Source of the DNA: Ptychodera flava
Taxonomy: Eukaryota > Hemichordata > Enteropneusta > Ptychoderidae
DNA: 64,000 bases
NCBI RefSeq assembly: GCF_041260155.1
Contig: NW_027248277.1
Location: forward strand, 19,992,872-20,056,871
Direction: 5' to 3'
Shown: positions 22,515 to 58,935 of the stretch, piece after piece
Numbering within the stretch: the stretch's first letter is position 1
Layout of the letters: every line of letters starts with the position of its first letter
Program-made: the position numbers and the translations under genes
Notes under the pieces: model-generated
What the model saw: the letters and a program-made list of their open reading frames with translations, nothing else
Told to the model about the DNA's origin: nothing
The model's database searches: none

Positions 22515-22856
22515 TCAAGGTAGAATACCTTTTCAGGGCAGCTACCAGACTTAAATTTTACAGATCTTTTCTGATCTACCACTAGTTGGGGTTCATTTTA
22601 AAGCTCTTGAAGTGAGAAAAATTGCCACTGTCCTAGTTTTTTTCAAAATCGCCATAAAGTTGACAAAGGAATGGGGAACATTTTGAATTTAAAATACTTG
22701 TATATATTGAAAATTTGATTCTCTGTAACCAAAACTTGCACGGTGACTCGTGAATTTTAGTGATTTTGAAAGAAATTGGTTAAAAGTTTACTTGATGAAA
22801 GTTTGAGAAATCCAAAAGTTGAAGTCTTTCATTTTGAAAGCATGCACTACCTTTAA
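22515..22856 (+). mobile_element. M2 MITE downstream of TRIM A
   Basis: About 340 bp matching 31936-32294, with a GGTAGAATA start, CTGATCTACCACT near the front, TTTGCACGGTGAC in the middle and GCACTACCTT at the end. It is at the same relative place as the copies after TRIM B and TRIM C. Confidence 0.75.
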
Positions 22857-29500: not shown

Positions 29501-30523
29501 CTTGTTTCGGACATGTCAGAAATTTGTCATTGTCAATAGCTACTAGTTATGTATTAATTTTAAAAGGGCGCTGTACGAAATATAGCGTATTTTCCTAAAA
29601 ATCACGTTTTGCAAAATATTCATTCAATTTTAAGTAATTGTGAACCCAAGATTAAAATATTGGTCAGGTTCACCTTTTAGCTTCTCAAGCAGTCGTACGT
29701 TTAGTGAGAAAGAAGTGTAAATTTATGTTAATTTATGCGTGTCACCCGATTTCTGGTTTCCCTTTCTTACAATTTCTAGATTTCCATAGAATTCCACTTT
29801 GGCTAGGTCAAACTTTCTGAAATTGTCACATTATCTTTTTTAAATACTATTTTTACCGAAAGACAATTTTGCTTAGCAATTAAATTCTGACATTTTGAAT
29901 AAGAGACATTTTAATTTTGCTTAATACAATTTTAATAATTTTTTAATTGTCAGTCTATCAACAGAATGGGGATAGAAAATACAAAATAAAATAGTGGTCG
30001 TAATACATTTACTATTGTTCGAATTGAAATATTGAATTTCAGGAAATAGTATAGTTTTTTACTTAAATTAATTTATATCAGAAATACCAAAATTGAAGTT
30101 TTCTTCCCAAAATATATAACCTTTTCTAGTAAACTGTTGCTGCAACACTAAAGTTAAGATTTTCTGCGTTTTGAAAATATATAGTACGAGGGGGTTTACT
30201 TGGCATCTTTGATGAGAAAATATTCATTTGAAAAAAAAAAAAAAAAAACCAAAAAAAAAAACTGTGTTGGTTAAGTGCAGTACGATGTCTCTTCTCAGTC
30301 TTTCTAAAGATTTCCATCACTAGTTTTGTAACAAATGACCAATAATGCATTCAGCTCGGTCCTTTCTGGAATTTTTAATCACAATAGTGCCCCATATTTA
30401 TTTGCTAACTTCAACTTCAGCCTGACATTTTATTTGTGAAATATTACCCCGAATGCGACGATTCAGACTATTCCGGTTCCGGGTCTAAACTGTAAGAGTG
30501 ACAACATTTCCACAACTTTTTGT
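26511..30523. other. Gene-free stretch, with a 2.2 kb segment bracketed by inverted repeats
   Basis: No exon or RNA gene was recognised; the short ORFs lack family features. Inverted repeats of about 65 bp at 27259-27324 and 29426-29500 (sharing AATGACGGCCAAG and AAATCGACGAATTTG) bracket 2.2 kb, which could be a non-autonomous DNA transposon. An M1 MITE (29211-29404) lies just inside the right repeat. Poly-A tract at 30231-30261. Confidence 0.5.
29211..29404. mobile_element. M1 MITE copy 4, diverged
   Basis: The left end is decayed (ACAATACGATTGAAACTAAG); the right end is good (ATTATCCCAAATTAGTTCC). It is the oldest looking of the M1 copies with two recognisable ends. Confidence 0.7.
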
Positions 30524-30620
30524 TTAAGGTAGAATGCATCTCGGGGAAGATATTCGGACTCTCAAACATTTCAAATTCGTTTCTGATCTACCACTTGTGG
30601 GGGCTAATTTCGATCGTGTC
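30524..30620 (+). mobile_element. M2 MITE, truncated
   Basis: TTAAGGTAGAATGCATCTCGG followed by CTGATCTACCACTTGTGGGG, then unrelated sequence. Only the first 95 bp or so is present. Confidence 0.65.
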
Positions 30621-30649: not shown

Positions 30650-31400
30650 AAATATTCTAAATAACTCAAAATACTATGGCTATCCGTCGCTAGCGCGGTG
30701 AAAGCTATGTCCGCCGATGGCCGACTTGCCTTGGCATCGGTCCAGCGCGAGACAATGATTGACACGCGCACGTGACCTAATCCGTATGTCTGATTGGTGG
30801 AGATACCATTTGATGTATCAAAATTTCAGCTTAATCGGATTTATGAATGAAAGTATACCTGTAAACATTTGCACATCTCCTGGGTGACGGGCCGCTTTAC
30901 TCATTAAATGAAAGTAATCCGCGTAAATAAAACACAAAATCGCGACAAAAATCATGCAATTTGTTACAATAATTTTGATCCATCCACATCAAAGAAAAAT
31001 AAGAAGACTGTTCATGTGATAAATATATAATCCCATGGAATTTTCTCTGTTTGACGTCATCGTATACTCGTGTTTTTCGCGGAGCCGCACAACTTCTCGC
31101 CTTCGGCTCGAAGTTGTACGGCTCCGCGAAAAACACTCGTATACGATGCGTCAAAGAGAGAAAAAATACCATGGGATTATAAATAAGAATTCACTGGTCT
31201 GCTGGTGGCTGGTTGATCTGGTTGATATATAACTAAAATGTTATAACAAGTAGAATAAATCATCCAAAAGAGGACGCTAATACGGAACATGTTGCCTCAC
31301 ATTTGTCCGATTTGTAATAAGCTATCTTCGCAAAGGTTGACGGGTAGGCTTTGGGTTGGATATCGCAGACGTTCCATCAATTCCATCAAATAATGAATGT
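30650..31400 (+). promoter_or_regulatory. Candidate promoter region of the fucosyltransferase-like gene
   Basis: CpG-rich patch at about 30685-30790 (CGTCGCTAGCGCGG, ACACGCGCACGTGACC) in AT-rich surroundings, followed by a snap-back palindrome (31026-31181) and the first coding exon at 31457. Placement rests on base composition and position only. Confidence 0.35.
31026..31181. repeat. Snap-back palindrome with about 70 bp arms
   Basis: Arms 31026-31096 and 31110-31181 are inverted copies with few mismatches; centre TCGCCTTCGGCTC. The left arm contains TGACGTCA. Same design as the palindrome at 16584-16738, whose centre TCGGCCTACGGCCTC is alike. Confidence 0.85.
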
Positions 31401-31456: not shown

Positions 31457-34400
31457 ATGTTTCTACGAGGCTTCGTTGCAATTCTTACAATGTCAATTGT
31501 AGTTTGCTGTTTTGGGTTCTTATGGCTAGAAATTGATGATGATCATTTGAGAAGAGGCTATCTACCACGACCGAAGAAGAAATTGAAGACTTTAGAAAAA
31601 CCGAAAACAAAAACTCCTCGCAGCAGACACCTTTTCAATCTGTAAGTGTAAAAATTGATTTCAGCAACAATTGTGTTATTACGTTTGGATAGTGATATGA
31701 CTGCCTCTTTTACACTGTATTGGCTCTCTGTGTCGGACTTCAACTCACATCCGCCAAATTAAGTTAGGATTTTGATGCAATCTAAAGGAATTTGATAGTT
31801 TAAAGTTTCTTTAAAATGGGTATTCGCTATTTCTATATATTCTGCAAAATTCATCCTCTCCATCAAGGTTAGGCGCTAACATGTACACATCATCGAGTCG
31901 GCCAACAAATTTAGAACAAACTTACCAACAGGTATTTAAGGTAGAACGCACCTCGGGGACAGAAATTCAGGCCTTCAAATTTTATCAATTTTTCTTCTGA
32001 CCTACCACTTGTGGGGGCTCATTTTGAAGCTCTTGCGAAAGAAAAGTTTTCACCGTCTTAGTTTTTCGAAAATCGAAAATTTTATTTTTTCTCATAGAAT
32101 TAACACAGGGATGGCGGCCATTTTGGATTTCAAATATCGAGAAATCGCAAGTTATTTGTCTCTCTAGTACAAAAGTTTGCACGGTGACCCCTGATTTTTA
32201 TTCTTGATTTGGTAAGAGAATGGTTGAAAGTTTCACTGAGGAAAGTTTGAGCAAAAGTTTAAGTCTTTCACTTTCGAGGTGCATATTACCTTAATGAAGT
32301 TTCATGGTTTTGTGAAATACGCCATCCCAAAGGTAGGCTACACATGACCTTCACATTTAACAGGCAGCATTTGTAAATGCTTCTCTGCACTTCACAAGCT
32401 GTCCAAATAGTCCTTTCCTTAACTAATTGGGTCAATATTAAGGATGTATTACTTTCTTTCAATACTTGTCACAGATCAAGACAATGCCACATCGTTGCGT
32501 ATCATTGTTATGCTGTACTTGTATTAGCATCATAAACACAAAGGTAGACTTTAAACTTGGCTTATATAGAAGAGTTTGAACTGTTACCTTTATGGTTAAA
32601 ATTAACAGGTTAATTTCAATACATCCTATTACGTCCGTAGGTCTATACGAATTCATCTACACGACTCCTGCTGTATATCAATCCCATAGGAAACGGCGGC
32701 CCTAACTGTCAGTACGGTCATTTTAAATCGGCCCTGCAATACTCTATCGCGCAAAATCGTTCTTTGGTGAACGCAATTATGTTTTATGAACATTCTATGT
32801 TCGGAGCACAGGGACAGCTTAAATACGCAAGGACACTAGAAGAGACATTTGATATCAACAAGTTGAAGGAAATTGTAAATATTATCTCTCTGGAAGAATT
32901 CAACGCTCATTGCAACAAAACAGTCGAAACTGTATTAACATCTCCTAATAAAGAAGGAAAGCACTTGACCAATGCGTATTCAAATGCTGCAAGACTTTAT
33001 CATTCTGCATTCGCTGTAGCAGTACCAGAGTACGAACACCTACCGGCAACAACAGATCAACTAACAGAACGACTTGAAACAGCGTCTTCGATGAACTGTG
33101 TTGGAGTTTGGGCCCTAAGCGCTGCAGGTCTTTTCACACCGACTATTCAAGAAAAATTCGTCAAGCATCTGGTACCGTCACTAGGTATACGCCATTCAGC
33201 GGATAGCATTCGTAAGAATGTATTGAAGGGACGGCCATACCTTGCGATCCATTGGAGGAACAAGCCTAAAGAAATGTAAATAAGTTGATATCACTCATGC
33301 CTCTATTGTAAAGGAAATTTTATGATTAAGGTAGAATAAGCCTCGGGGACAGATGCTTCAAATATCGGTAAATCTTTGGTAAATTGTTTCTCTAGTACCA
33401 AATTTGAACGGTGACCCCCCCCCCCCCTATTTTATTCTTGACTTTGAAAGAGGATAGTTGAAAGTTTCATTGAGGAAAGTTTGAGCAAAAGTTTATGTCT
33501 TTCAGTTTCGAGGCGCATATTACCTTATGTAAAAAACTCACTTACTAAACGGAGTAAGTTTGTATCTGGAACTGATGTGTGTTAGAAAATATCACCAAAA
33601 TCAACAAGCGTTTCGCACATCAGACAAATTGCTTCAGGAGAGTGTCTCTGATGCTTCTTTCTGCGAAAAGAAGGACTCCTTATCTTCATGTGTCTGTGTA
33701 ATTGATGCACTCACATTCTATGGGTAAACTAAAACACCTTTAGAAGCACTCACATTCTGTGAGTAAACTAAAACACCTTTAGAAGATTTAGCCAACCTCT
33801 ATGCCTTGAACATGACGTAAACTATTATGTATTATCACGTAGACGATTGCTTACATATATTCTGTATTACCAACAAGTCATTATCAATAATCCCCAGTAC
33901 TTAAGGTTGCGGAAAATATTTTAAAGCTGAAATTGTGATGATTTAATCGCATTGCTATTGCATCATAAGAAAATCTGACCATTTTTTATAATCACTGCAC
34001 ATAGCTTAATCGATTTTGTTTGAATGATATATTATATTTTTTGCAGTTACAAAAAAATTTGTGAACATGTCGACAGAGGTGAAAATAAAAGATGTTAATA
34101 CTATACGCGGGACCTTGGATTAATGATGAATCTCACGGGCGATATTGCTAAATCTATTCAGAATTTCATGAACACCACAATCTAACACAAGTGTACGTCG
34201 CTAGTCCACCTATCTCAACGGTAAGTTCTTGAAATACCCTTCTGCTGATTCACGCTTTTGCATCCCTTATTTAACCCTTTCACCACCATGGTATAGCCCA
34301 ATCCTATTATTATCAATGATTATTGTGGACCTGTTTACAGGAAATTGGGGGGTGAACAGGCTAAGAAATAATGTACCCCCTCCCAGCCCATAATGGACGA

Positions 34401-37400
34401 AAGCAAACTTTGCAAGACATAATGTACGAGGCGAAGTCAAGTACAGTGCAAAGTTTGCTCGAGTCCATTATAGGCCGGGAGGGGGTTCATTATTGCTATT
34501 ATTTTATAGTTTGGGTAATGCCAGTGAGTTTGTAGAAAACGAATACAAAAGCAAATGAAAACTGAGTTTGAAGCCAATGAGCATCGCCCAGTATGATCGG
34601 CCCTGAATCTGTATACTGCATACATTTAACAATATTCCGCATTCACTGCACTGGACATGCACGTTCAACGCACAAAAATGAGCAGCACATTTATGGTTCA
34701 AATTACATTCTTATCGTCTATATCCAGCTTGAAACATCAAATTTCAATATCATGTCATTCAAAGAGCTCAAAGCACGTGAAATGCAAGGCAAACAAAAGA
34801 ACGGATTTTTCATTAATACGAATATCGACATCATGTCAAGGGCCTGTTGCAGCGAGCTTCATGTTATAAGCTGATTGATGCGATCAGTATCACAGACAAA
34901 AAGACATTCTATTCGCTAGTAGCACAACATTCAATTACAGACAATATCAACGTAGTAGCCACGTCAAATATCGACCGTTGGCATTAAGAAAGTGTGTTTT
35001 AAAAATGTTACCAAGTGGGAGTGCCACTATGAGGGTGATCGAGATGCTTGCTACGTCATCATAGCTGCGAACAATAGAACGCGCCCTCTACGACGCGCGC
35101 GTCCACTGTACGTGACCGAGACCCTGCGATTCGCGTTCTTCCCTGTTGGAACACGCGCGCCCTTCAGAGACGCGACGCGAATCCCAGGGTCTGGACGTTC
35201 TTGCTTGGCTGGTCCCCGCCTCAGTGACTTCGTGCTGCGTCTAGCTAGTCACGTGAGACGCAGTGATCAGCGAACGTTCTTGCAAGCGACCGGTCGGATT
35301 TCTGCCTGATCCGGGTACTTTATAGAACTCCACGCATCCGTTAGGCCTAATCAAAACAAAAATGACAAGTAGCAGCGCCAAATAAAATGAAAAATGAAAA
35401 ATAAAAACATACCACGTATAGGTCTACCGGCTACTAGTATATATTCTCTCCGCCCAGTTAGATCTGAGGTGTTTGTTTTGACGTCACTACCCTTATGATA
35501 TTCATACCCTTGCAAAAACGGACAGTCGCTGTGTCTGGCAGCGCGTGCTCACAGCTGCACAGCGTAGTCTTCGTAGTCTTCGAATGAAGGCCCATCGTGG
35601 GCGCGCACAAAACAAGGCACAGCGACTGTGGAGAGTCTATACGTGACCGTGCTCACTGTAATAAGGCCAACGTAATTAAATTCTTTGTTTTGCGTCCCTA
35701 CCCGCCTAGGTTTTTAAGGTTTTCATGAAAAGCACACACAGTGTATTTGAATAGGATATTTTAGGACATAACCGCTTAGCTTTTCTGAACTAAAATTTTG
35801 TTACAATTTTTTATTTGCTGCAATCAAATTACATTGTGTTAATTTTCTTGTATGTGTTTTTCAGCCGTTTAGACGCGTACTTTTTCCATTAAGAGTGGAC
35901 GCAAACAAATAATTTAGTTACTTTGGCCTAATTACACCGTGGTTTAATGGAAACCTATCTTCATATACATCTTATTGTCAGAGCTTTTAGCATGAAAGCG
36001 GACGTTGTTAGTGATGATTGAATGATCATTATAATATGTTCGACTTGAACGTTTTAAATATTTGAATGTTGATACATTTACAGTATTTAAAAATAATTTG
36101 AAAAGGACATATTTCTCATCAAATTGTGATTTTTCCCATTTCACATATGGGGAGAGGGTGACATAGCATTGTAAATAGGCTGGTGACCCCATATTGTTAT
36201 TTGATGCATATAATGTGCAATATCTGAACAATAATTTGTATGAAAATAAACGAAATTGTTGGATTGGAAATCTAAATAATTCTACAAAGTATGGATAAGG
36301 CGTGGTCATTACTTTTAAGTTTGCAACAGCTTTAACTGTTGTTTTGGAAGGCCTGGGAAATGGTAATTTAAATTCATATGCACATTTTCAGCGGAAAAAA
36401 TAGCTAAAACTGTCATTTATTATTCAATGTGGTTCACATGTAAATAAACAAGAAAGGAAGTGAAAGTAAATATATCGGGTAGGGCAACGCTTACGGGAAA
36501 TTCATAATTTCTGTCATGCCAATGGGATAAAGTGGGTATATTTAAAATCGCTGTTGCTGCCAAATTAATCTGGTGACACATTGATTTTTGTCGTAATCTC
36601 ATCATCACATATAAGTCTCACTGTTATAGAAAAAAAAACGAAAATTGTTGGTAAAAAATTTAGTGGCTCGATCACCCTTAAATTCAACATTTTTGTTTCG
36701 TTTTGGTTTTGTTTTTTTCCTGGTGAATATTGAGTACTATGTGAACAGCTAATTAATTTGAATATTAATATATATTAATATAAGCATCAGAAGTCATAAT
36801 ATTCACTGTCGCCTCGCAGTGACTAGATGTATTTTCCACTCATTTTCGTCAGCGATGAATCGAAAAAAAAAGATAAAGAAATTTACCTCGGAATACTCAT
36901 ACTCCTCGTTTGGTTTGTTGCAATTTTCCAGCGTACTGAGTTCGGTTTCACCTACCTATATACACATGATATTATATATCAACAAAGCGAGCCATGTTGT
37001 AAACAACGTAGCACTGAGTACTGCATAGTATCGAAGGGGAGCTGAGCGCGAGCAAGACGGAACAGACGAAGAGTACACCCAGGAGGACTAGAAATTTTTG
37101 ATAAATCGCACAGAAAGACATTATTATCGATATAGTACACCATTATCAAGATTTATCGTTAAATGTATTGCATGTATGTTTACTCCATAATATCCCTTCT
37201 TATAAAGCGCCAATGGCTGCTATTTTATGCACTATTTTCATGATTTTATTTTCAAACCAAAGTTGATTCGTGTAAATGTTCTAACTGAAGGACGTGTTGA
37301 AGTACACTGCTAGCTGATTTGCAATTGGATCACGCCTACAAGTTTTAACAGGCTTAATAATAAACGGGTGCCTCATCCATAAATGGCGCCGTCACGGGAA

Positions 37401-38396
37401 AAATACAAAAAAAACCCCAGTATTTCCTACACATACACATCGTGATCATACCAGAAACGAGCATGATGGCATTTACTTCAATGCACAGCACAGGATGGCC
37501 AACATTTTGTCGTTTTAATCTTTATTTTCTATGTCATATGATTTTTGTTTGATTTTCTATGATTTTTAGTTTTTGAAAATGGCGGGAAATCTAAAATGAC
37601 GTTAAAACCTTTGAATTTACGAATTTACATGCCACTTTGACACTCGTGGAAGCGTTATACACTTTACAGACTCTAAAGGGTCTTATTCAAAGAAAACTCT
37701 TGTAAAACTAAGGGTATTTTGAGATCGGTCTATTAAACATTCGTAGCTATTGGGGCTTACCCACGCCTTTATTCGTTTATAAACAAAAACCTTGTATTGT
37801 TATGCTCGCTGAGGGGCCACGATGCTTTATAATGGGGTACATTATCAGTAATAATCAGGGGGTAAAACGGCACAAAATTCACTTCTTTTGACAAAGCTGT
37901 AATATAATATAATGTAGATTAATTACCCAAGTAATTAACACACCAAAACGCGAAAAAGTTCACCGAACTAATTGTTGGACCTTGTGACATGAACGCTGTA
38001 TATAGGTCTTTACTTTTTGTATACAAGCTCAATTCGAGACAACATTCCTGATGCTACAGGGTAAATTATTCCATAGTTACGATAATATTGAAACTATTTT
38101 GAGAGTCTTTAGCTCAAATGGTATATGAACGGAAAAAGCACGTAGAGTGTTGTATCTATGGATGAGGACACTACCGACTCATTAATCCTCGCATTTGTGA
38201 CATCTCAGTTAGATTATAATAGTCACTTGTATAGATCAGCTGCATCGTTTGCAATCTCTTCCAAACTTCTGTTTTCAGTCTCGCCTTTGTATGTGTTTTC
38301 TCTTGCAGTATAGTTGTTTTATTATTTTTTGGGTGTCTGTGTTCAGTCTTGTTATCTTTGAATGCCAGTGAGGAAGTATAGGAAATAAATAAAAAA

Positions 38397-38439
<43 letters not shown>

Positions 38440-41400
38440 AAACACCGCAGCACGTTTAATCAGCCGTTCTCGCAAATTTGATCATACTACACTTGTACTT
38501 GTTGATTTACATTGCCTGCCTGATGAAGTACATATTAAGTTTAAGTTTATGCTATTTTCCTTTAAAGTATATAAGTAACTGCTTTTAAATTACTAGAAGT
38601 TTTGCACGTGTGCATTTGGCAGAGCTGATAGAGCAGTATGTTCCTTCCAGAGATCGCCGTTATGCAGATAAGTTACGTCTAATTCCACTTCGCGGTAAAT
38701 TCAGTAAGACATACAGCCAGAGAGCCTTTTCAGTGTGCGTGCCATCTTTGTGAAATATGTTGCCTGCAGAGATTCGTACGGCAAGGAATGTTGAGTATTT
38801 TGAACGCGGTTTAACATGAATTGTAAGTGATTTGTTTCACCGCAGGACTGCTCGTGTGGTGTGTTATTATCCGTGCTGCTTGCATTAAGTATTTTGTAAA
38901 TGTTGCATATTCTTTTGAGTGTTCTGTACAGCGTACTATGACTTATATGTGTATGGCGATTGTTAAGAAGTTTTAATAACAATGATAATATTTTGTCTCA
39001 AGGGTACAGTTACAGACAAAGAAGACGCTCCTTGGCCATGAACCATCATATGCATCAAGTTTGGTTTTACATATGCAACCTTTTGTTCAACTGAAAGCGA
39101 GTTTAATTTCTCAAAATGCGTGACATCAATGTGTGTGCGGGGAAGCAGATCCAAAATAAATCTGAAATTTTGTTTTGTGTTATTTCTAAACGACGTTAAT
39201 TTGTTGTGATACATTAAGCCCTGAATAAGAGAAGGAGCATGCATAGTCGTAATCAAATTATTTAAAGCGTAATACGAGTTTGAGCCTAGAAACTTTCTCA
39301 ATATAACGTGTCTGGTTGTACTGTCGCCCTTCAATCTTCGGTCTAAACCAGACAAATATTGGCAAAACTTTAGCACTCTCAAATAAAGCATTGTAAAGTA
39401 TAATATTACGAATATCTGTCGCGAGGCGCATTTCTACATTAACTAACCTTCAGAATGCAATTTTTATTTCAATTCTATTTATTTTCCGTTTTTATGACAA
39501 AAATTTGAAATAACGTTTTGGTAGTATTTTTGCGCCCAATCCATTCTGAAATATTTTAAAAAGCCTATTGTAATAGAAGGCATTATTTCAAATGTTGTCA
39601 ATAGGATTTCTTTTTCTCATATTTTTTTCAATGAATCTTTTTCAATAAAGCTCCCGTTTTTAAATATTAACAAAATGCGTTCTGCTTTTTCATGTTTGAA
39701 ATCCGACATATGATTCCCAATATACTAAACTCGAAATTACATATCAAAATGTAATTTTTTGAACTTTTTAATGTTTTTTAAGTATTTTTTTTTAAAGTAA
39801 AGAAAAGTAAAGAATGTTTCTTCTTTTTCAACGAAATGAAAATCGTATTTTTGAAAGTTATTTTAATTTTTCATTTATCACTGCATGGATTTGGACCGTG
39901 ACGCTGGATACACGCATTGTGCACGTCCATAATATGTACCCACACTGGCATTGAGTAGAGAAGGCTTATGGCCTGTGGAGACTACATTCGTTTATCGGCA
40001 AGATTAAGACATGCTCAGGTGACAAGTCAAACGCGCTCAATATACGATAATTCTCGAATTTACATTTACAAATAAATTTTAGAATGCACGTTCTGCTCTC
40101 TGGCATTTATGAATGTTGAATACGTTACTTGCTTGTGGAGTCATGTAATATCAAGTTTATTTCGCCTGCGTTTATTTGTAGGGCTACTGGTATGTCGGTT
40201 TGTTGTCTTATGGTGAGAGACGATTGTTCGAAAGTGACGAAGTTGTGTGAAGTCGGTAATTGCGGTCGCATACCATTTTAATACCTCCATTTGTACTTAA
40301 TTTCTGTTTATAAAGGATTTATGTAATATCTAGTTTATTTTCCAAATAAATTGCATATGTTTCAAGCCATTAAAACCTGAATGCAGCCCTGGACTGCATA
40401 TTATCCCCAACGATTAGCTGTAATCATTGTAATTTTTTCATTGATTGTTTGGTAGGCATTTTCCCAAAACAAGGGGGTAGGATATTAATTATCGGTACAT
40501 TTATTCTTAGTGCACGATAACATTTCATACATCACAAAATCCACATTCTCTCTTTGCAAATATCAACATTCTCGTTTCAGTCCATAGCACACACCAAGTG
40601 GCTTGATTCGGAGGTATTGTTTCGACTGTCTTGACTTTTATAGCAAATTATGTGGTGTGGCTTTTTGTTTTGTAGAATTTCGTGCAAATACTTAGGAATT
40701 TAGGAGTCGCAAGTACGTTTTCTGCTGAAAATATCACAAGTGACATAGATACCAAAGCAAAGAATGATCCTTACATATGGTCTCTTGTTGAACAAGAAAT
40801 CTGCACAAGTAAGTTTACATTTGTTTAATCTTATATTTAAAATAAAAAAGCATTGCACTGATAAATAAGCTTACCTCTATGAACTATGCATTTTATGAAC
40901 CACCGTCCCATGCACAGATGAACTAAGTCTAAGCAAAGAGTCTATTCAAAGTTACCTATAAATCTGTTGAAGACAGCACCTTCCAATTCTCGTTATCAAT
41001 CTACCTGATTTACCGATTTCTGCAATTAAAAATGACATGTGTTACCCATTTAGAGAAAGTTTATACTTTGGACTTTTACTAACCTAACGAAAACAGCTAC
41101 GTTGATGCTATTTCAACAGTGACAGATAGTTTTGATGCCAGTCTAAGTCTACTAATCCGATACTACCACGATGACATCATCTTATACAACATGAAAAATT
41201 GCTGTTTTGATCGTTTTACGCTTTAGATGATGGGTATCTTTCAAAGAAATGCTATGCCTAAAAGGTTTTCAGCAAACACGTTACCTTACACAGAACATAA
41301 AAATGATTCTTCAGGAAAATTTCGCCTTTAACGAAATATACTCTTTCATGATTAATTTCATTTTCTTGTCACAATCACTTATTCTCGTGAAGGACACAAA

Positions 41401-41772
41401 TAACGAAGTTCACTATATATAAAATGTAAACTACTGTGTTTTTAAAGTACGGCTGAAGATTTTCGGCCAGAATAAGTCAATGAAGGCAAAACCACTTCAG
41501 ATAAAAGTCGATTTTTTGACGAGACGTCCGCATAAGTTAAAAATATTTATTTTTATTATGTTGCCATTTGAAATTACAGTTATTCCTGTCCTTAACCATT
41601 ATTTTTAATGATTCTTCCCTGTCCTTAACCATTTTTTTTAATGATTCTCTTTCACAGAGAAAAAATAATGAGTTGATATTGTGTAACGTTTCTCTTCGCA
41701 GATGCCCACGTATTTATTGGACACTACAACAGCACTTGGTCGCGGAGAGTATGCGAGAGAAGGTATGGCTAA
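31457..41772 (+). CDS. GDP-fucose protein O-fucosyltransferase-like enzyme, seven exons
   Basis: Exons 31457-31641, 31868-31931, 32641-33275, 34047-34078, 34162-34220, 40676-40808, 41702-41772 join in phase with GT-AG ends and give 392 residues; POFUT1 is about 388. Start MFLRG is chosen because a membrane anchor (VAILTMSIVVCCFGFLWL) follows at once, as in type II Golgi enzymes; an in-frame ATG at 31397 is an alternative. After a Lys/Pro-rich stem comes LLLYINPIGNGGPNCQYGHF, in the place of the family's N-terminal glycine-rich GDP-fucose loop, then YLAIHWRNK, equal to the conserved HxR motif, and FIGHYNSTWS, equal to the STFS-type C-terminal motif. The likely role is transfer of fucose from GDP-fucose in the secretory pathway; the acceptor cannot be told. 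The 6.4 kb fifth intron holds LINE remnants. A divergent member of the PF10250-type fold rather than clear POFUT1 or POFUT2. Confidence 0.85.
31936..32294 (+). mobile_element. M2 MITE, reference copy
   Basis: TTAA at both ends, then inverted termini GGTAGAACGCACCTCG and CGAGGTGCATATTACC; 359 bp with no ORF. A TTAA target and short inverted ends resemble piggyBac-type non-autonomous elements (inference). It starts within the donor region of the intron after exon 2 of the fucosyltransferase gene. Confidence 0.8.
33326..33528 (+). mobile_element. M2 MITE, internally deleted
   Basis: Starts TTAAGGTAGAATAAGCCTCG and ends CGAGGCGCATATTACCTTA, about 200 bp. The middle third of M2 is missing. It lies in intron 3 of the fucosyltransferase gene. 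Confidence 0.75.
33721..33783 (+). repeat. Short tandem duplication
   Basis: Two copies of a 38 bp unit (ATTCTATGGGTAAACTAAAA and continuing) in the third intron of the fucosyltransferase gene. Confidence 0.7.
34270..34350 (+). repeat. Short dispersed repeat, second copy
   Basis: TTTAACCCTTTCACCACCAT, then GGACCTGTTTACAGG, as at 1431-1512. Confidence 0.55.
34366..34494. repeat. Snap-back palindrome with about 48 bp arms
   Basis: Arms about 34366-34414 and 34447-34494 share CCATTATGGAC/GTCCATTATAG and GCAAACTTTGCA words in inverse order. The 32 bp centre contains GAGGCGAAG, the complement of a CTTCGCCTC like that in the 31.1 kb palindrome. In intron 5 of the fucosyltransferase gene. Confidence 0.75.
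34992..35330. other. GC/CpG-rich block with imperfect palindrome inside intron 5
   Basis: Rich in CGCG words, with inverted halves (GAGACCCTGCGATTCGCG against CGCGAATCCCAGGGTCT). The 105-codon ORF across it is Arg-rich and follows the base composition. It is either a CpG promoter-like patch or a GC-rich fold-back element. Confidence 0.4.
36827..37045 (+). other. ORF with Lys-rich head and single membrane segment inside intron 5
   Basis: 72 codons: a Lys-rich KKKDKE head, then hydrophobic IYLGILILLVWFVAIF, then polar sequence. The form is that of a type II signal anchor, as in a Golgi enzyme's first exon, and it lies on the coding strand of the fucosyltransferase gene. No donor clearly joins it to exon 40676, so an alternative first exon is only a possibility. 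Confidence 0.25.
38150..38830 (+). mobile_element. LINE remnant, reverse transcriptase C-terminal region
   Basis: Translated plus-strand pieces match the usual end of CR1/L2/Jockey-type LINE reverse transcriptases: FVTSQLDYNSHLYR (about 38185-38240), NTAARLISRSRKFDHTTLV (about 38440-38500), LHCLPDEVHIKFKFMLF (about 38510-38565) and RAFSVCVPSL followed by NMLPAEIRTARN (about 38720-38790). Reading frame is lost between pieces. A (TAAA)n-ended segment of about 165 bp (38275-38441) interrupts it. Confidence 0.8.
38375..38441 (+). repeat. (TAAA)n microsatellite
   Basis: About fifteen TAAA units, probably the tail of a retroelement that inserted into the LINE remnant. Confidence 0.9.
38963..39391 (-). 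mobile_element. LINE remnant, reverse transcriptase C-terminal region, opposite strand
   Basis: A 142-codon open frame containing LLPRTHIDVTHFEKLNSLSV, then EQKVAYVKPNLMHMMVHGQ, which corresponds to the THFxKLxWLxVxxRVxxxKL...GxAPSYL segment at the end of LINE ORF2. It is about 130 bp beyond the plus-strand LINE piece and in reverse orientation, so it is a second insertion. Confidence 0.75.
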
Positions 41773-42830
41773 ATGCTTGACGATTAAAGATTTTGCAGCT
41801 AACCATACGAATGAACTATTTAGCCGTCGTCGCTAACGTGATAGCAAAATGGAAGTACACATTTTTATCGTTTTATTAAATTTGAAAGCTTTTATTTTTT
41901 GAAAGGTGTTAGGCATGATCACATGCACATGCCAAATTTGTCGTCTCCGAACAAAAAAATACGGGATTTATTCTCTGGTCGTTCTACGTCACGACAACCC
42001 GCGTCTATGTCATCAATTTTGGTGCGTCGGACCTTTTTTTGCGTCGATCTTCGGTGTGCTCGTAAATGTAAACAAACAACATGGCGGCCGATATTTCTCC
42101 CACGATCAAAATGTGTCTGACGTGAAAATATCGCAAACATTAGTCATGATTATTAGAGTCTGACAATACATCAACTAGGCAAATTTTTGAGACCTCGTGT
42201 TTTAGTTTTGTCGCCGATATGCATGGGGTTTCGTATTCGTATGGACCCCGCCGACGCCTGAACTTTCGACGCACTGTGTACTTTCATGCGGTAGACTAGA
42301 CCACGGTAGACATACGGTTTCCACTGCAACAAGGGGGTCAAGTGCGGTGTCCATGCCTCCAAAAGTCATGTAATGAAATCGATATTTTCACAGACTACGA
42401 CATTTAATCCGAACAATATAAACACAAGAGTGTACCGCCTGTATATTCCGAAGCCGTGAATAATTTGCGGAAACCACGAACTCGAAGCTGGTAGCGTTAC
42501 CGTGGGTCAGGCTCGACGTTTACAGTGTTTGCGCCGTCGAGATTCACACGATATTTTTTCCCGAAAAATAGCGTATCTTCGTCTGTGATAAATTTCTAGG
42601 CCTATGCTGTCTTTGAAATAGTGTATAACTTTGCGGAAGGTAGTCGTGTTGACCGAGAGGTCCTCAGGCATTTGCTTCATACACGAACGAACGTGAACGC
42701 CGTGTTCCTCGCTCACGCGCGCGACGGACGACTGGAAATGATTGACAACTTGCGCACGGCGTACTGATATTATTCCTAAAGTAGTTCAAAAGTTTAAAAC
42801 GCGGAATCGTCATCCTTCCATCCTGACTAA
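41773..42830. other. Gene-free stretch with a CpG-rich part
   Basis: Downstream of the fucosyltransferase stop. CpG-rich between about 41980 and 42750, with a YY1-type AACATGGCGGC at 42078-42088 near stretches rich in CGTCG words. It could be a promoter of an unseen transcript. No exon is convincing on either strand. Confidence 0.35.
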
Positions 42831-44110
42831 TCTACATAGATTTACTTTGCAGATTTAGCTTATATCAAAGCATATACTCTAGGTGTTTTCAACGTACAGC
42901 CACCTTGTAGGTCAATGTTTGAATGTGAAGCCTACACAGGTATGTAAAGTTTACTTTAATCCGATCCAAAAACTAAAAATGCCACATTCTTTCTAGAAGA
43001 TGTTCAGCTACCAAACAAGCGGGCATCTTCCTGAAATTAATCAGGGCCAAAAACAGCAACGTGACTTCGGTGAACTTGTAAGGTTAAATACTACGTATGT
43101 GTAAAGAGAGGTGAAAAAGTTAGCATGTGAAAATGCTGTCGCTCTCAAGGAAGCACAGATGAGTACTCGGCCACGTGCGGGCGATCGTTTGCTTGCCAAC
43201 AAAGAATTCCGCCGGAGCGCACAAACTTCTGACATTTGCCTAACTTTTGGTTTTTTTTTCGAAATTCAAATGAATAGATATGCTTTGCAGATTTTGCTTA
43301 TATCTAAACATATAATTGAGGTTTTATTAACATACAGCCATCTAGCAGATCAACATTTTGGGATGAAAAGCTAGAACAGGCACGTAAACTTTAATCCAAT
43401 CCAAAAACTTAGAGTGTCAAATTCTTTTCTACAAGGTAAATTAGCTATCAAACAATCGAGCATCTTCCCGCTGAAAAAAAAAGTATATATGTGTAAAGAG
43501 AAGTGGAGAGTTAGCGTGTGAAAATGATGTCACTGTCAAGGAGCAGAGTCGAGTGTTCGGCCGCGTGCGGGCGATATTTTGCACGCCAACAAAGCGTAAA
43601 TTCCGACGGAGCGAAGCTTTTACCAAATTGGCCAAATTTTCGGGTTTTTCCTCTCGTAATTCAAATAAATAGATAACATGCAGGCATTTAGCAGGTAAAT
43701 ATTTGTGGTAAATATTTGTGGTTAAAAAGCTTCAACAGATTGGTAAACTTTAATCCAATCAAAAAACTAAAAATATAACATTCTTTTTAGAAGACATTCA
43801 GCTACCAGACAATCGGGCATCTTCCCAGTTAACTTCTAACGTCAATGACTATGTATGTGTAAAGAGAGGTGATGAGTTAGCGTGTGAAAATGTTGTTATT
43901 CTAAAGGAAGAGGAGTCGAGTTTCCAGACGCGTATATATGGGCGATCTTTTACAAGCCACTCAAAAAATCCGCCGGAGCGCACAAACTTCCCAGATTGGC
44001 TGTACATTCGGGTTTATTCCTTTGAAAGTCAGATGAATGGATTTATAGCTTATATCAAAGCATATAATTGAGCTTTTTTAAGATAAAGCCTACCAGGAGG
44101 TCAATATTTT
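42830..44110. repeat. Satellite-like array S, third block
   Basis: Three to four units; the AGTACTCGGCC/AGTGTTCGGCC landmark falls near 43160, 43545 and 43922, so the period is 377-385 bp. Same unit as 13850-17950. No ORF conserved between units. Confidence 0.85.
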
Positions 44111-44284
44111 TGGATGAAAAGTTAGACTTGGTTCAAGTCGGTGACTTTTTGAAAAATAAAATCATTTAAAATATAGTTTCTCTTGTGTCTCTCCTATTTC
44201 GTACAAACCTATTCGAATTTGGTAGCCCAGGACAGGTTTTCCCAGCGATTGAATGCGTTACCTTTGAATCTGTGTAGTATAGCC

Positions 44285-44948
44285 ATATGGGATTCGATCT
44301 CCGATGATGACGATGATGATGATTAAATATTTAAAAATGAAGAAAAATAAAAATATATTTGGACTCAGTAAATTTGTTGTTGTTGCTGTTATTGTTTGTT
44401 GTCGTTGTTGATACTATTTGCAGAAAAGAACAAAGTATGCGCTGCAAAATTCAACATAGCCTAACTATACATGTGCGTTGCAAATTCAATACAGCTTAAC
44501 ATTACCCAAGGGATGTCACTTCATTGCCACACACTTTTTTTCAATCGCCAAAAATGCACCTAGTAAGCATAGAATTTTACCGATTTCGATGCATGCTAGG
44601 TGCATTTTTGGCGATTGAAAAAAAGTGTGTGGCAATGAAGTGACATTCCTTGGGTAATGTTAGGCTGTATTGAATTTGCAACGCACATGTATAGTTAGGC
44701 AGCAACGCACATGTATAGGTAGGCTGTATTGAATTTGCAACGCACATTTATAGTAAGGCTGTATGTGTTGAATTTTGCAGCGCATAATTTGTTCTTTTCT
44801 GCCAATACTATCGACAAAGACAACAACAATAACAACAACAACAACAACAACACATTTACTGAGTTCAAATATATTTTTATTTTTCTTCATTTTCAAATAT
44901 TTAATCATCGTCATCGTCATTATCGGAGATCGAATTCCCTATGGTATA
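44285..44948. mobile_element. Fold-back element with about 280-350 bp arms
   Basis: The left arm (44285 to about 44563) returns inverted in the right arm (about 44596-44948): GATTCGATCTCCGATGATGA, GCAACGCACATGT, AATGTCACTTCATTGCCACA and CGCCAAAAATGCACC appear in mirror order. The right arm is longer because a 60 bp segment is duplicated. Both arms contain an AAC/GTT trinucleotide run. No ORF. Confidence 0.9.
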
Positions 44949-45089
44949 GCGAGTTAGTTTCTGCCGGTGATTCCGGTGAACTGAACTCATCGCGTCCACT
45001 TAACTCACGCGCGCGTTTCACATGAAAGCAAAATACATATCATTGCGTTCACTCCACTCAAACATTAACAAATCACAGACTTGAACCAA

Positions 45090-45480
45090 ATCTAGATGAA
45101 AGCTTGAATAGGCAGGTAAATTTTAATCCAATCCAAAAACATAGAGTGTTATATTCTTTGAAGAAGACATTTACTACGAAAATCGGGCATCTTCCCCAAA
45201 TCATCGGCACCAAAAACAGCAACGCTTTTGCATGCCTAAGACTCTTTTATTTCAGTGAACTTCTGAGGTCAATGACAACGTATGTTTAAATAGAGGTGAG
45301 GAGTTAGCGTGTGAAAATGTTGTCACTGAGAAAGCACAGTTGAGTACTCGGACATGTGCGCAAAAAGATACGTGATTAAAATCGTTTTATACTCCAATAT
45401 ATATGGCAGTAGCAATTAAGTGAGATGAAGAGTTAGCGTCAAAAAATGTTGTCCCTCTCAAGGAAGCAGAGTCGATTATT
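45090..45480. repeat. Satellite-like array S, fourth block
   Basis: One full unit and part of another, with GTAAATTTTAATCCAATCC, ATCGGGCATCTTCCCC and AAGCAGAGTCGA landmarks. It ends where the fold-back element at 45497 begins. Confidence 0.8.
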
Positions 45481-45496
45481 TGGACGTGTGACCATA

Positions 45497-46121
45497 GGGG
45501 AAAGAAATCAGTCCCCTGGGGTGGGAGGGAGTTTTTTGTGCAACGGTTTACCTTATTTGATTTTATTAATTTTGACTGTGATATTTCAAATAAAGTTCAA
45601 GTCCAAACCATCTGACTGCTTTCTTTATTACTACAAGTAATTTTATTAATTTTGACTGTGGTATTTCAAATACAGATTTCGACTCCACACCGTCTGACTG
45701 CTTTATATATTACCGACAAGTCCTTATCTCCTCTCCAACTTGTGTATACGCCACTGTAATTGCTCCGAAAACATTGCCAACTTGCTAATCCGCTGTCGGT
45801 ATCAGCGGATTAAGTGATTGAGTCAACACCACAGCCGTCCTTATTTCACTACGTGTGGGACGGCTGTGGTGTTGACTTAATAAGCTAATCCGCTGATACG
45901 CTCAGTCATTAACAAGTTGGCAATGTTTGCGCAGCAATTAGAGTGGTATGTGCACTGGTTGAAGAGGAGATAAGGAATTGGAAACACAGTCAGACAGTTT
46001 GGAGTCGAAAGCTTTATTTGAAATATCACAGTCAAAATGAATAAAATCAAATATTAAAGGTAAACCGTTGCACAAAGAAAACCTCCTCCCCACCCCAGGG
46101 GACTTTCATCTGCCCCCCCGT
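45497..46121. mobile_element. Fold-back element with about 300 bp arms (GGGG...CCCC ends)
   Basis: Arms about 45497-45840 and 45857-46121 share TCCCCTGGGGTGGG, GTGCAACGGTTTACC, ATTTTGACTGTG and GCTAATCCGCTG in inverse order. The innermost 19 bp GTCAACACCACAGCCGTCC pairs perfectly around a 16 base loop. The left arm carries a tandem duplication of about 80 bp. A deleted relative lies at 46894-47464. Confidence 0.9.
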
Positions 46122-46218
46122 GTCCCTTCTGATCTTTAAGTAGGACCTGCATACTACAATATTGGATGACGGGGTGGCTATAGGCCTAAAGCTGTCTATC
46201 CATCATTTTGCATTCATA

Positions 46219-46426
46219 AACACGATTGGAACTAATTTGGGATAATGTATGGTGAAGTATTCGATATAATCTGCAAATGTAAGTTCATCAGCTTTTCTTT
46301 TAAGTTACACACTTGTTTTTATGAGCAATTTGTAATATTGCAACATTAAGCTATACGGCACCTCAAACTTTGAGAAATTTAAGAAATATGAAAATCCACT
46401 TATCCCAAATTAGTTCCAATCGTGTT
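46219..46426. mobile_element. M1 MITE copy 5
   Basis: Starts AACACGATTGGAACTAATTT and ends CCAATCGTGTT, flanked by CATA at 46215-46218 and 46427-46430. Units A and C preserve the empty site (TTCATAGTTAGAAAAGTAC at about 18507 and 57973), which confirms both the ends and the 4 bp duplication. Confidence 0.92.
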
Positions 46427-46893
46427 CATAGTTAGAAAAGTACTGACATAATGATAATCTGATACACAATTATCTGGAAGTCTTGATAGTTAAACACCCT
46501 GTCCTGCAAATGGAAGATTCCTTGACATGGCTGACGACCACTAGAAATACTCTGTTCCTTGCCTGCTCGGGCCATCTTCATTTTCCAGGGTGTAAGCTTA
46601 TAGTCAAGTGTACTGTTGTTTACACGGTCGGTAGTGTATATTCCAGTTGGATAGTATATCGGTTGGAACATAGTGTTTCTATTGTGATAATAATAATCTT
46701 AACTGTGGTTCTACCCGAACTAAATTTAAAATTCCTCCGTCTACACCGGCGCGGCATTGTTGTAGAAGTGACCTCCAACAGCAGACACATGTCTGTATCA
46801 CACTGGATCACCTGATCAAGATGTAGGTCACACGTACAGACCTCCGTAGCTGAGCGTATGAAATCAAAACAATTTGCTTCACTCCAATACTAC

Positions 46894-47464
46894 CACAGGG
46901 AGAAGAGAAAGGTCCCTGGGGTGGGGAGGGAGTTTTTTTTTGTGCAACGGTTTACCTTATTTGATTTTGTTAATTTTGATTATGTTTATTTTGTTAATTT
47001 TGACTGTTAATTTAAGGAGGGCACCGTGGTCCAGTGGTTAGGATGGTGAATTCGACGCCCGGTTCAAGACCGGGTAGGGTCAGAATAATGGTCTAGCATG
47101 GTGTTGTGCCCTGAGCCCCTGATGATGGACTGATTAAAAAAAAAAGAAAGAAAAAAAAAAGAAAACTGTTTATTATTTCAAATAAAGAGTTCAACTCCAC
47201 TCTGACTGACTGCTTTATATGTTACCACAAGTCCTTAGAGGAGATAAAGACTCCGAAAACATTGCCAAAACTTGCTAATCCACTGTCCGTATCAGCGGAT
47301 TAATTGATTAAGTCAACACTTGAAGAGGAGATAAGGAAATTGAAAACACAGTCAGACAGTTTGGAGTCGAAAGCTTTATTTGAAATATCACAGTCAAAAT
47401 TAATAAAATCAAATAAGGTAAACCATTATACTTAAAAACACTCCCTACCAATCTGCTCCCTGTG
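46894..47464. mobile_element. Deleted fold-back element with 7 bp target duplication
   Basis: CACAGGGAG and CTCCCTGTG ends, flanked by ATACTAC at 46887-46893 and 47465-47471. The inside matches the outer arms of 45497-46121 (GTGCAACGGTTTACC, TATCAGCGGATTAA), but the central palindrome is gone. A tRNA-derived SINE is inserted at about 47015-47165. Unit C shows the empty site. Confidence 0.85.
47015..47165 (+). mobile_element. tRNA-derived SINE
   Basis: Pol III A box TGGTCCAGTGGTTAGG (47027-47042) and B box GGTTCAAGACC (47061-47071), with the GTGGTCxAGTGGTTAGGA spelling of tRNA-Glu. A 60 bp non-tRNA body and an A-rich tail follow. Flanking ACTGTTAATTT and ACTGTTTATTA look like an imperfect target-site duplication. 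Young-looking and nested in a fold-back element. Confidence 0.85.
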
Positions 47465-47563
47465 ATACTACAGTTGGTGAGTCATGTGACAATATCTTGT
47501 TGAGGGGCCTTATCTGCTATCAGCTCTGTACCTGTCTCAGGTTGACCGACGCTCCTATGCACA

Positions 47564-49759
47564 ATGGCTGCTGCTTCTGAACGCAAAGTTTTGGAAGAAA
47601 TCGGTGAAGATTTCCTGTGTTGTACCATATGTCTGGAGCAGTTCAAGTCTCCTAAAATTTTACCATGTCTGCATACATTCTGTCAGCAGTGTTTAGTCAC
47701 ACTGGTTGAGAAGACTGGATCTCTAAACTGTCCAGAATGTCGACAACAATATCAGCTTCCTGTTGGAGGAGTGCCAGCGATAAAAGGCAATTTCTTTATG
47801 AGCAATCTGATTGAGATATTCAAGCAACGACTGGAGTCTATACAGGGAACTGAGATCAAATGTGAAGGCTGCCAACAGAACACAGCCACTCACAGGTGTG
47901 TGGAGTGCAAACACTATCTCTGTGACAACTGTGTTAGGGCACATAAAAATCTGCCAATAACACGGATACATCAATTGATGACCATTGGAGAATATGAAAC
48001 AGCAAAGTCAACCAGTCCTGTGACATTACAAGCAGTGGAATATTGCAATGTCCACACTGAAAATAAAATTGAATTCTACTGTGAAACCTGTCAGGTACCT
48101 GTCTGTACAAACTGCACCATAGTCAAACACCGCATACCAGAACATGAACACAGATACTTGAAAGATGCAGCAGATGAGTATCTAACAGAATTGAAAAGCC
48201 ATGGTTGACAAACTGAAAGTGAAAGAACAGGAAGCTGGAAAGAACAAAACCCTGGCCAAGCAGATACACATGATCTTACACAGCAGTGCAGCAGAGAAGA
48301 AAGGAAGGTGAGAATGAAAGCTGAAGAAATCATCAAGAAAATAAAGAGAGAAGAGCAGAGACTGATAGATGAACTGAAAAACAATTACAAACTAAAAATT
48401 AAAATAGCAGCTGTTAATATTGATGAGATGGAATTAAAACATGATAACATTAAGAGTGCAGGCAATTACATAGAGACACTGATGCATTATGGGAATGCTG
48501 CTCAACTTCTCTCCACAAAGGGTGATGTCAGCACTCGTATCAAGCAACTGATTACCATGGAAACTACACCAAAGAATGAACATGAGGACTTCATATTTAC
48601 ACCACATGAGTTCTGTGAGCATGGAATTTTGGGAATAAATAAATCTGATGTATATATGTCAAAGTGTACAGTTGAAAACATTCCAAAACAACTCTGGAAA
48701 GGTGACTCTGCAGACCTACTGATCACAACCAGAGATTCCACAGGAAAACAAGTCATCCCAAAACAACCAGTGAAAGCCAAGGTAAGAAAACCTGGTGCAT
48801 CATGGGAAGACATCAATGTAGCTGATAACAGAGATGGTACACACAGAGTTACAGTGTCTGGACAATTGGATGGAAAATATCAAGTTACCATGACAATAGG
48901 AGATCAACCAATACCAGGCTGTCCTGTCATCATACCTGTCATCAAAGGATTGGTGAAGACCATTGGCAGTCAAGGAAGTGCTGAGGGACAGTACAACAAT
49001 CCCTATAGTGTGGTCATAAACAAAGACAGAGACATTGTCACTGCAGACTATGGCAATAATAGGTTGCAGATAACTACCAGAGAGGGAACATTTAAGAAAA
49101 TTTTGGAATTCAAACAGTTTATCAAGCCATTCACACCACGTGATATAGCTATATCAAGTGATAATACATACCATAGTTTAGATGACAACAATAAGCAAGT
49201 AGTTGTCAGTGATGAGAATGGACATGTCATCAGATGCTTTGGACAAAATGAGTTGAAAAATCCATATGGTATTGGGATTAGTCCTGTAGATGGCAATGTC
49301 TATGTGACAGATGGCGGTGGGAATTGTGTCAGGGTTTATACAGAACATGGTAAATACCTGAGATCATTTGGGTCAGGAGGTAAAAATCAAGGGCAATTTA
49401 ACTGCCCCAGGGGTTTAGTCATAGGAAGTACTGGAATGGTATTTGTAGCAGACTACTTGAACAAGCGTATCCAGGTATTCAATGCAGATTACCAGTATTT
49501 GTATTCCTTTGATTGTCAGAGTGGGGATGGTAAGATGAGATACCCAAGGGGAATAGCAATTGAAAATGATAAATATGTCTATGTTACTACTAGTAACAGC
49601 ATACTGAAGTTTGAGAGTAGTGGTAAGTTTGTTTGTCGTATTGATAGTGATAGTGATGAGCTGAACTGGCCCACTGGTATAGCACTGACAGATGATATAC
49701 CTTGCAGGGTGATTGTAGCAGATTCCAACCACCACTCTATCAAAGTATTTGTACAGTGA
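47564..49759 (+). CDS. TRIM-NHL protein copy B (RING, two B-boxes, coiled coil, filamin, NHL), near-intact
   Basis: Single-exon gene of 731 residues, the size of TRIM2/TRIM3. RING at residues 20-59 with C20, C23, C35, H37, C40, C43, C56, C59; B-box 1 about 100-137; B-box 2 about 161-196; coiled coil about 205-330; filamin-type domain about 366-460; six NHL blades about 464-731 (for example NPYGIGISPVDGNVYVTD). Expected role: RING E3 ubiquitin ligase with a propeller that binds protein or RNA targets. Against copies A and C there is one extra base near 48197 and one missing near 48269. Overall frame is kept, but the 70 bp between them are shifted and contain a TGA, so as written the protein ends at 214 residues. 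Either two assembly errors or a recent lesion. The start is supported by identical context in all three copies. Confidence 0.92.
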
Positions 49760-50281: not shown

Positions 50282-50636
50282 TCAGGTAGAATATTCAATT
50301 TCTCAAATTTTTACAATTCTTTTCTGATCTACCACTTGTGGAGGTTCATTTTAAAACTCTTGGAGTAAGAAAACTTTTTAAGGTCTTAGTATTTAAAAAA
50401 TTGAAAATTTGATTTTTCCCTATAGAGGTAACCCAGAAATGGGAAGATTTTGAATTTCAAATATCAGTACATATTGGATTATTTTATTTTATTCCCATGC
50501 ACCAAAATTTGCACGGCGATACCCGAATTTTATTCTTGCATTTGAAAGAATTTTGTTGAAAGTTGCTTGAGGAAACTATGATCTAAAGTTGAAGTCTTTT
50601 CTTCTTGAGAAGTAAACTATCTTAAAGGGATAACAG
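50282..50636 (+). mobile_element. M2 MITE downstream of TRIM B
   Basis: Same relative place as in units A and C. It has the CTGATCTACCACTTGTGG and TTTGCACGGCGA landmarks. Ends are decayed. Confidence 0.75.
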
Positions 50637-57370: not shown

Positions 57371-58935
57371 AGGTGCCTTGCTGTTTAACAGAGTGTCTGA
57401 CATGTCACTTTGTCATAGAAATCAGTGTTTCAGAGATATGCAAGCCTAACATGGATACAACATTCAACATCGCTTTGGTAGTTTCATATCACATGGTTTT
57501 TGATAAGTTTGGTAAATTTACAGAAATGTCGGTATCTTTACTTGCATATGCAAAATTATACTCGTGCTGGTATGGTATGGTATAAAGGCAATGGTATGAT
57601 GTGATTCATGGTTGAACCCAGAGTCATTAAATAATGTTCTTGTACATGTCTCAACTATTTCAACAGGAAATTCATGTCTTCCAGTGAATCAACAGATGAG
57701 TGACCAGGTGAGACAGTTAAGAAAAATACTTTAATTTTTAAGAGAAATGTTGGGGCGGTGATTTCTCAGTTATGATTTCACATCTAATTTATTATGGACC
57801 CGAGGAATACATTTGACAACAGGACTGGTTCCTTTAATGTCTCAGACAAATTTACACCTTTGACTGCAAATGATTCATTCCAACCATTTACTGCTCTCTA
57901 TAGAATTGTAGGACCTGTGCACTGCAAAATGGGGATGACAGGGTGGCTAAAGCTATATATCCATCATTTTTCATTCATAGTTAGAAAAGTACTGACATAT
58001 TAAATGATAAACTGACACATGATTCTCTGGAAGTCTTCATGGTTAAACCCCCTGTTCTGTAAATGGAAGATTCCGTGACCTGGCTGACGACCACTAGAAA
58101 TACTCCGTTCCAAGCCTGCTTGGACAAGCTCCATTTTCCAGGGTGTAGTCAAGTGTACTGTCGTTTGTGCTGTCTATAGCGTATATTCCAGTTGGATAGT
58201 GTATCGACTGGTACTGTGAAGGAAAAAAAAAAATCTTAAATGATAAAATTCAGATGTACTATATGCATTACCCCTACATATAATATATATATCCTATCAA
58301 ATTCGACAGCGAGGGGCATAATTTCTTGCAAGATTTTTAACTACAAATTAAACAAATGTAAAAAATATACTGAAAAGAGGAATTTACAGATACTATTCTA
58401 TGGAATAAAGTTCTTATTAGTAGTCTTATTCACGATTTCATTACGGCAAGAAAAACACATGACATTTTATTTAGATCCAAATTTCTGTTTTAGATCCGAA
58501 ATTCCATGCTGTTCCGCTCCAAAATTGAGTGGACAGAAGAAAGAAATGGACTGTTATTAAGAGAAACTATTTTTCTTTTTTGTGTGGCTATTTCGTTCCG
58601 TTCCGTTCCGCAAATCAGTGTAAGCCAACATGGACTATATGTACTTAAAAGTTTCAACAATATGAGCAAACAAAGGCAGCTTTTGAATGTGTCACATGTC
58701 AGTATCCATACTATTAAAGTGGATCGTCTGATCAAGAAGTAGGTCACCAAGAACTCCCCAGCTGAACGTATGAAATCAAAACATGATTTGCTTCGACCGT
58801 GATCATACAATACTCAAGTCAGTTGGTGGGTCATGTGACACCATGAGAAGTTTTGCAATATCATTTTATAAAGGGGCGTTGTCTGCTATCAGCACTGTAC
58901 CTGTCTCAGGTTGTTCACTGACACACCTATGCACA
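57370..58935. other. Upstream part of TRIM duplication unit C
   Basis: Matches 17960-19770. It keeps the empty sites of the M1 MITE of unit B (near 57973) and of the fold-back element of unit B (near 58810). No exon is seen apart from the conserved run-up to the TRIM start. Confidence 0.7.

Follow-up and report, generated by a model that had tools for sequence, protein, structure and literature searches.

Seven-exon gene model in the Ptychodera flava window

A 64,000-nucleotide stretch of the genome of the hemichordate Ptychodera flava (contig NW_027248277.1, positions 19,992,872 to 20,056,871 of the forward strand; the window) carries on its plus strand, between window positions 31457 and 41772, seven exons whose joined product matches the O-fucosyltransferase family of Pfam (O-FucT, PF10250). 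We consider it likely that these exons form a real and presumably expressed animal gene for a PF10250 glycosyltransferase that is distinct from POFUT1 and POFUT2, probably anchored at its N terminus, of the GT-B type, and dependent on guanosine diphosphate (GDP)-fucose.

The joined exons amount to 1179 nucleotides (nt), that is, 392 codons and a stop codon, free of internal stops and frameshifts, and all six introns (226, 709, 771, 83, 6455, and 893 bp) begin with GT and end with AG. A preliminary description of the locus had proposed this in-phase join, and the coordinates, the 392 residues, and the small sizes that it gave for exons 4 and 5 (32 and 59 bp) and for the intron between them all hold. 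Exon 1 (31457..31641) contains the start codon, a hydrophobic N-terminal segment that is probably a type II anchor, and a basic stem, which continues into exon 2 (31868..31931), an exon placed by its splice sites and frame only. Exon 3 (32641..33275) encodes the N-terminal catalytic part up to the HWR motif, and within it lie the predicted donor loop NGGPN (residues 101 to 105, 32692..32706) and HWR itself (residues 287 to 289, 33250..33258). Exon 4 (34047..34078) bridges exons 3 and 5, exon 5 occupies 34162..34220, exon 6 (40676..40808) carries Glu364 (codon 40790-40792), and exon 7 as modelled (41702..41772) ends the protein with an STWS motif (41731-41742) and the stop codon. The three motifs named in the preliminary description are thus present, at residues 101 (as NGGPNCQY), 287, and 380.

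The reading frame leaves exon 3 in phase 2 and resumes in exon 5 in phase 1, and therefore a bridging exon is needed. Of the exons that could fill this place, 18 are open, and exon 4 ranks first among them by splice score (12.94, against 10.88 for the runner-up), computed, like the other splice scores given here, with textbook splice-site weights that were not trained on this organism. Were intron 3 retained, the protein would stop at an in-frame TAA at 33277-33279, where, according to the preliminary description, gene calls might end. Exons 1 and 2 give no PF10250 domain match, and none would be expected of exon 1, so that junctions 1/2 and 2/3 stand without homology support. In a codon score derived from 1375 codons of the TRIM-like frames in the same window, the proposed frame comes first of six in six of the seven exons and only fifth in exon 7; part of this advantage comes from the penalty placed on stops in the other frames, from which any open frame would profit.

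The N terminus of the predicted protein is hydrophobic, with a 19-residue mean hydropathy of up to 2.49 at residues 6 to 24, and the protein contains six N-glycosylation sequons, features that together fit a secretory-pathway protein held by a membrane anchor. The N terminus probably anchors the protein in the membrane of the endoplasmic reticulum (ER) or Golgi, with the catalytic part in the lumen; of the type II anchor claimed earlier, the hydrophobic segment was found, and the anchor itself is probable.

The sequence does not confirm the earlier claim that the gene is complete. An in-frame ATG at 31397, upstream of the modelled start codon, offers an alternative start, and the 3' end is open to a second interpretation, in which the model is correct up to exon 7 while the transcript continues, past a splice after position 41762, into at least one further and unrecognised 3' exon with a POFUT-like C-terminal tail. 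Exon 7 itself contains a strong donor (AAG/GTATGG, 41760..41768, plus strand, last exon base 41762), located 10 nt short of the final base of the stop codon. With a score of 8.46, this site ranks at the 98.6th percentile of plus-strand GT sites in the window and outscores four of the model's six donors, and the codons that close the model may therefore be intronic. The model has nine residues after the ST motif, where the compared POFUT1 and POFUT2 stretches continue for 18 to 39, and the low codon-score rank of the exon 7 frame points the same way. Against such a continuation, none of the 26 phase-fitting acceptors (score of at least 5) in 41830-47540 yields a recognisable tail, the PF10250 match already extends to profile position 323 of 326, and ATTAAA, a possible polyadenylation signal, occurs downstream of the stop codon at 41783 and 41875. 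We regard a further exon as a serious possibility that falls a little short of an even chance; it is compatible with a real PF10250 gene, and the RRYG that closes the model may not be the true C terminus.

Several repeats lie within or next to the gene. An interspersed repeat of up to ~330 bp occurs at seven places in the window with 74-85% identity (4460-4779, 22653-22835, 30523-30610, 31935-32295, 33357-33527, 50303-50599, and 60173-60493), with copies in introns 2 and 3, and one member of a second repeat pair (1428-1521 and 34268-34364, 86% identical) lies in intron 5. Also in intron 5, one frame of 38757-38816 reads, by eye, MLPAEIRTARNVEYFERGLT, which resembles the C terminus of non-long-terminal-repeat retrotransposon proteins and which we take to be a probable decayed fragment. 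Roughly 300 bp 5' of the start codon, 31023-31184 holds a hairpin with 44-nt arms (31058-31101 and 31105-31148), a 3-nt loop, and 89% complementarity; it is nested in a second inverted repeat and is perhaps a foldback element.

Family assignment and comparison with POFUT1 and POFUT2

The joined protein matches PF10250 with an E value of 1.6e-15 and 58 bits, well above the cut-off of 31.5. When parts of the protein are scored separately, exon 3 covers profile positions 6-187 (E=2.8e-8, 34.2 bits, above the cut-off), exons 4-7 cover positions 245-323 (E=1.2e-5, 25.6 bits, by themselves below it), and exons 6-7 cover positions 288-323 (E=0.0029). These matches follow the order of the profile, which indicates successive pieces of one domain spread over 9 kb of one strand, and none of five shuffled copies of the whole protein matched any Pfam family at E up to 10. 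NCBIfam has no family for the protein at E up to 1. It is this profile match that carries the case and not the motifs: in six frames of the window, [HY][LWFIM]R occurs 89 times, GGxN eight times, and a looser pattern of the FIG..STWS segment twice, one of these being exon 7, and we therefore rejected short motifs as proof because they are this common.

The best match in the PDB is POFUT2 of the worm Caenorhabditis elegans (E=0.0051), in an alignment that spans junctions 3/4, 4/5, 5/6, and 6/7, and hhalign aligns 102 C-terminal columns with a POFUT2 pair at P=2.8e-7 and a probability of 93%. Against a POFUT1 pair it aligns 276 columns, residues 93-388, at P=2.9e-4. Between them, the PDB alignment and hhalign set Arg289 of HWR opposite the essential Arg of the HLR or HWR motif of POFUT1 and POFUT2. 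Together with the Pfam match, these results bear out the earlier designation as O-fucosyltransferase-like. For the CAZy families GT65 and GT68, the comparison was made with POFUT1 and POFUT2 chains only.

The distance from both known enzymes that had been suggested is also confirmed. The protein is 20% identical to human POFUT1, to worm POFUT1, and to human POFUT2, and 18% identical to worm POFUT2, whereas the human and worm proteins share 42% within POFUT1 and 47% within POFUT2. Since the five-protein MAFFT alignment misplaces the HLR region of POFUT1, residues in that part were matched by means of motif anchors, hhalign, and a published structural account (PMC6096484). According to that source, human POFUT1 and POFUT2 contact GDP through Asn46/57, His238/292, Arg240/294, Asp340/371, Ser356/387, Ser357/Thr388, and Phe358/389. 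The counterparts here are Asn105, His287, Arg289, Glu364, Ser380, Thr381, and Trp382, five of which (Asn105, His287, Arg289, Ser380, and Thr381) are identical to POFUT2, while Glu364 for Asp and Trp382 for Phe are conservative replacements. In worm POFUT1, Arg240 was described as the key catalytic residue and Phe357 as important for GDP binding (PMC3180450); the latter position is Trp in the present protein.

The base Glu54 of POFUT2 and Arg43 of POFUT1 fall on Gly102 when counted back from the Asn, or on Asn101 in the MAFFT column, and in neither register is a Glu or an Arg found. From the donor loop to the HxR motif we count 181 residues, compared with 191-194 in POFUT1 and 232-234 in POFUT2, and the spacer from HWR to the next strand is 26 residues long, compared with 63-65 and 33; for human POFUT2 the landmark was H253-R255, and its distances of 234 and 33 were counted by hand. 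The stretch after HLR in human POFUT1 is described as covering the donor and excluding TSRs (PMC6096484), and an insert of this type is absent here; loop 141-155 of POFUT2, to which TSR binding is ascribed (PMC6096484), aligns with a gap under MAFFT, where identity is 20%.

The protein resembles each of the two enzymes in part. Like POFUT2 (GT68; human 4ap5/4ap6, worm 5foe/8ay1), it is of the PF10250 type, with HW/LR, S-T-aromatic-S/T, and [DE]Q..C..A..FIG segments and a short spacer after the HxR motif; unlike POFUT2, it lacks the base Glu, has ~50 fewer residues between donor loop and HWR, has a predicted membrane anchor, and is modelled without a C-terminal tail. With POFUT1 (GT65; human 5ux6, worm 3zy2) it shares the loop-to-HxR distance, an Asn in the donor loop (NGGPN here, GRFGN in POFUT1), and the absence of an acidic base at the POFUT2 position; it differs in missing the equivalents of Arg43 and Asp244, the insert after HLR, and, in the model, an ER-retention (KDEL-like) tail.

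Other frames and repeats in the window

Outside the gene's own exons, tblastn gave no second copy in the 64 kb better than E=2.0. The window also holds three TRIM-like copies (20018-21973, 47546-49759, and 58774-60125), whose frames, apart from 20018-20515, were scanned against Pfam: RING and B-box domains were found in 47546-48205 and 58774-59535, filamin and NHL domains in 20642-21970 and 48209-49756, and nothing in 59460-60122. These frames are broken by stops or frame changes, which suggests introns or decay. RING/B-box and filamin/NHL frames of this TRIM type would mark the DNA as eukaryotic and probably from an invertebrate animal.

By eye, several degenerate copies of one stretch lie in 42800-45400, and a 105-residue open frame kept in one of them (43754-44071) has no Pfam match at E up to 0.01; two more long inverted repeats (44510-44720 and 45770-45940) and a stretch resembling a tRNA-derived short interspersed nuclear element, with a GGTTCAAGACC box (47025-47085), were likewise noted by eye. 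Neither ARAGORN, in its bacterial setting, nor Rfam, at the gathering score, reported anything in the window. A tandem array at 51940-52996 has a period of 146 bp (about six copies) and a higher period of 291 bp.

Proposed activity, alternatives, and meaning for the family

By homology, the protein would have a GT-B fold and act as an inverting enzyme, with a GDP-sugar, most likely GDP-fucose, as its donor in the lumen of the ER or Golgi. Arg289 of HWR would hold the beta-phosphate, and Asn105, His287, Glu364, and the strip Ser380-Thr381-Trp382 would hold the nucleotide. Given the lack of a Glu at the base position of POFUT2, activation of the acceptor hydroxyl probably does not involve a classical base and may instead depend on a proton shuttle through Asn105 of the kind proposed for POFUT1, where, in a computed route, the active-site Asn passes the acceptor proton to the beta-phosphate (PMC8631701).

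Several observations weigh against a GDP-fucose-using PF10250 enzyme of this description. The gene model was read from genomic sequence alone. The PDB matches are weak, with 13 sequences at E up to 10, of which four are POFUT2 (0.0051 to 1.5), none POFUT1, and nine unrelated; the hhalign probability for POFUT1 is just 41%, and all of the hhalign figures stand without a shuffled control. Searches of viral contigs and prokaryote genomes with exon 3 and a 65-residue piece of exons 6-7 found no relatives; such scans reach close relatives only, so this result is no evidence of uniqueness. In the donor loop, MAFFT and hhalign both set the Asn of POFUT1 opposite Cys106 rather than Asn105, and only the POFUT2 register places Asn57 on Asn105; this uncertainty between Cys106 and Asn105 is the weak point of the proposed shuttle. 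Lastly, HWR is followed by NKPKE, without an equivalent of the fucose-contacting Asp244 of POFUT1, and the donor could therefore be another sugar.

The last point leads to a PF10250 enzyme that uses a different donor sugar, as do plant rhamnosyltransferases of family GT106, which are related to PF10250. The fucose contacts of POFUT1 (Arg43 and Asp244) and of POFUT2 (Pro53) have not been retained, and the GT106 enzymes are reported to use uridine diphosphate (UDP)-rhamnose (PMC7343896). However, the guanine-nucleotide contacts common to POFUT1 and POFUT2 are largely kept, and fucose contacts are described as differing even between these two (PMC6096484), which leads us to judge another donor unlikely. 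That the protein is a diverged POFUT1 or POFUT2 orthologue acting on the usual EGF or TSR acceptor appears more unlikely still: its HWR motif, DQ/EQ..C..A..FIG segment, and ST-aromatic strip do resemble worm POFUT2, but an identity of 18-20% is far below the 42 and 47% within the two human-worm pairs, and the protein has neither the base Glu nor the POFUT1 insert after HLR nor, as aligned, anything that matches POFUT2 loop 141-155. Active-site residues, identity, and spacer lengths thus disfavour orthology. That no working gene is present, the exons having decayed or lining up by chance, is very improbable, since 392 codons are free of stops and frameshifts and separate exons match PF10250 in order, with none of the shuffled copies doing so, even though the absolute codon score is below zero in five of the seven exons, a further point against a functional gene.

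The missing POFUT1 and POFUT2 features would fit a different acceptor, which the preliminary description had suggested may be new; as far as the alignments go, they argue against a simple EGF or TSR enzyme and name no target. A more far-reaching possibility, to which we give clearly less than an even chance, is that the protein belongs to a third animal class of PF10250 enzymes: membrane-anchored GDP-fucose transferases that combine the POFUT1-like absence of a base with the HWR and ST strip of POFUT2, lack the known acceptor-selecting inserts, and would attach O-fucose to a substrate different from EGF and TSR, either a folded domain or a glycan. To our knowledge, POFUT1 and POFUT2 are the sole well-characterised animal PF10250 enzymes; unnamed PF10250 proteins are probably present in many invertebrate proteomes, and among the open-licence papers listed in our literature searches none pointed to a third animal class. 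O-Fucose on EMI domains, a recent finding, is reported to be added by POFUT3 and POFUT4 of CAZy family GT10 (PMC11990869).

Outside animals, divergence of this kind has precedents. Eight PF10250 subfamilies have been described, two of them confined to plants and the remainder fungal, and while the Arg is present in all eight, only two retain the POFUT2 Glu (PMC10481521); since fungal subfamilies without the POFUT2 base are already described, divergence alone is not surprising. Arabidopsis ESMD1 is listed in a group of 39 proteins that combine a transmembrane domain with PF10250 (PMC4958334), and plant AtGTLP is given as 16-20% identical to POFUTs and unclassified in CAZy (PMC11500582). By description only, the present protein is like the fungal and plant subfamilies (PMC10481521; ESMD1), several of which lack the Glu while keeping the Arg, and like the Arabidopsis group in its predicted transmembrane domain (PMC4958334). 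Divergent PF10250 proteins with a membrane anchor thus form a kind that is already known, and what is new is the present animal gene.

Because divergent subfamilies have already been reported in plants and fungi, the protein is a candidate for assay rather than a surprise. An animal PF10250 enzyme that lacks the substrate-selecting features of POFUT1 and POFUT2 could indicate a fucose target that has yet to be described.

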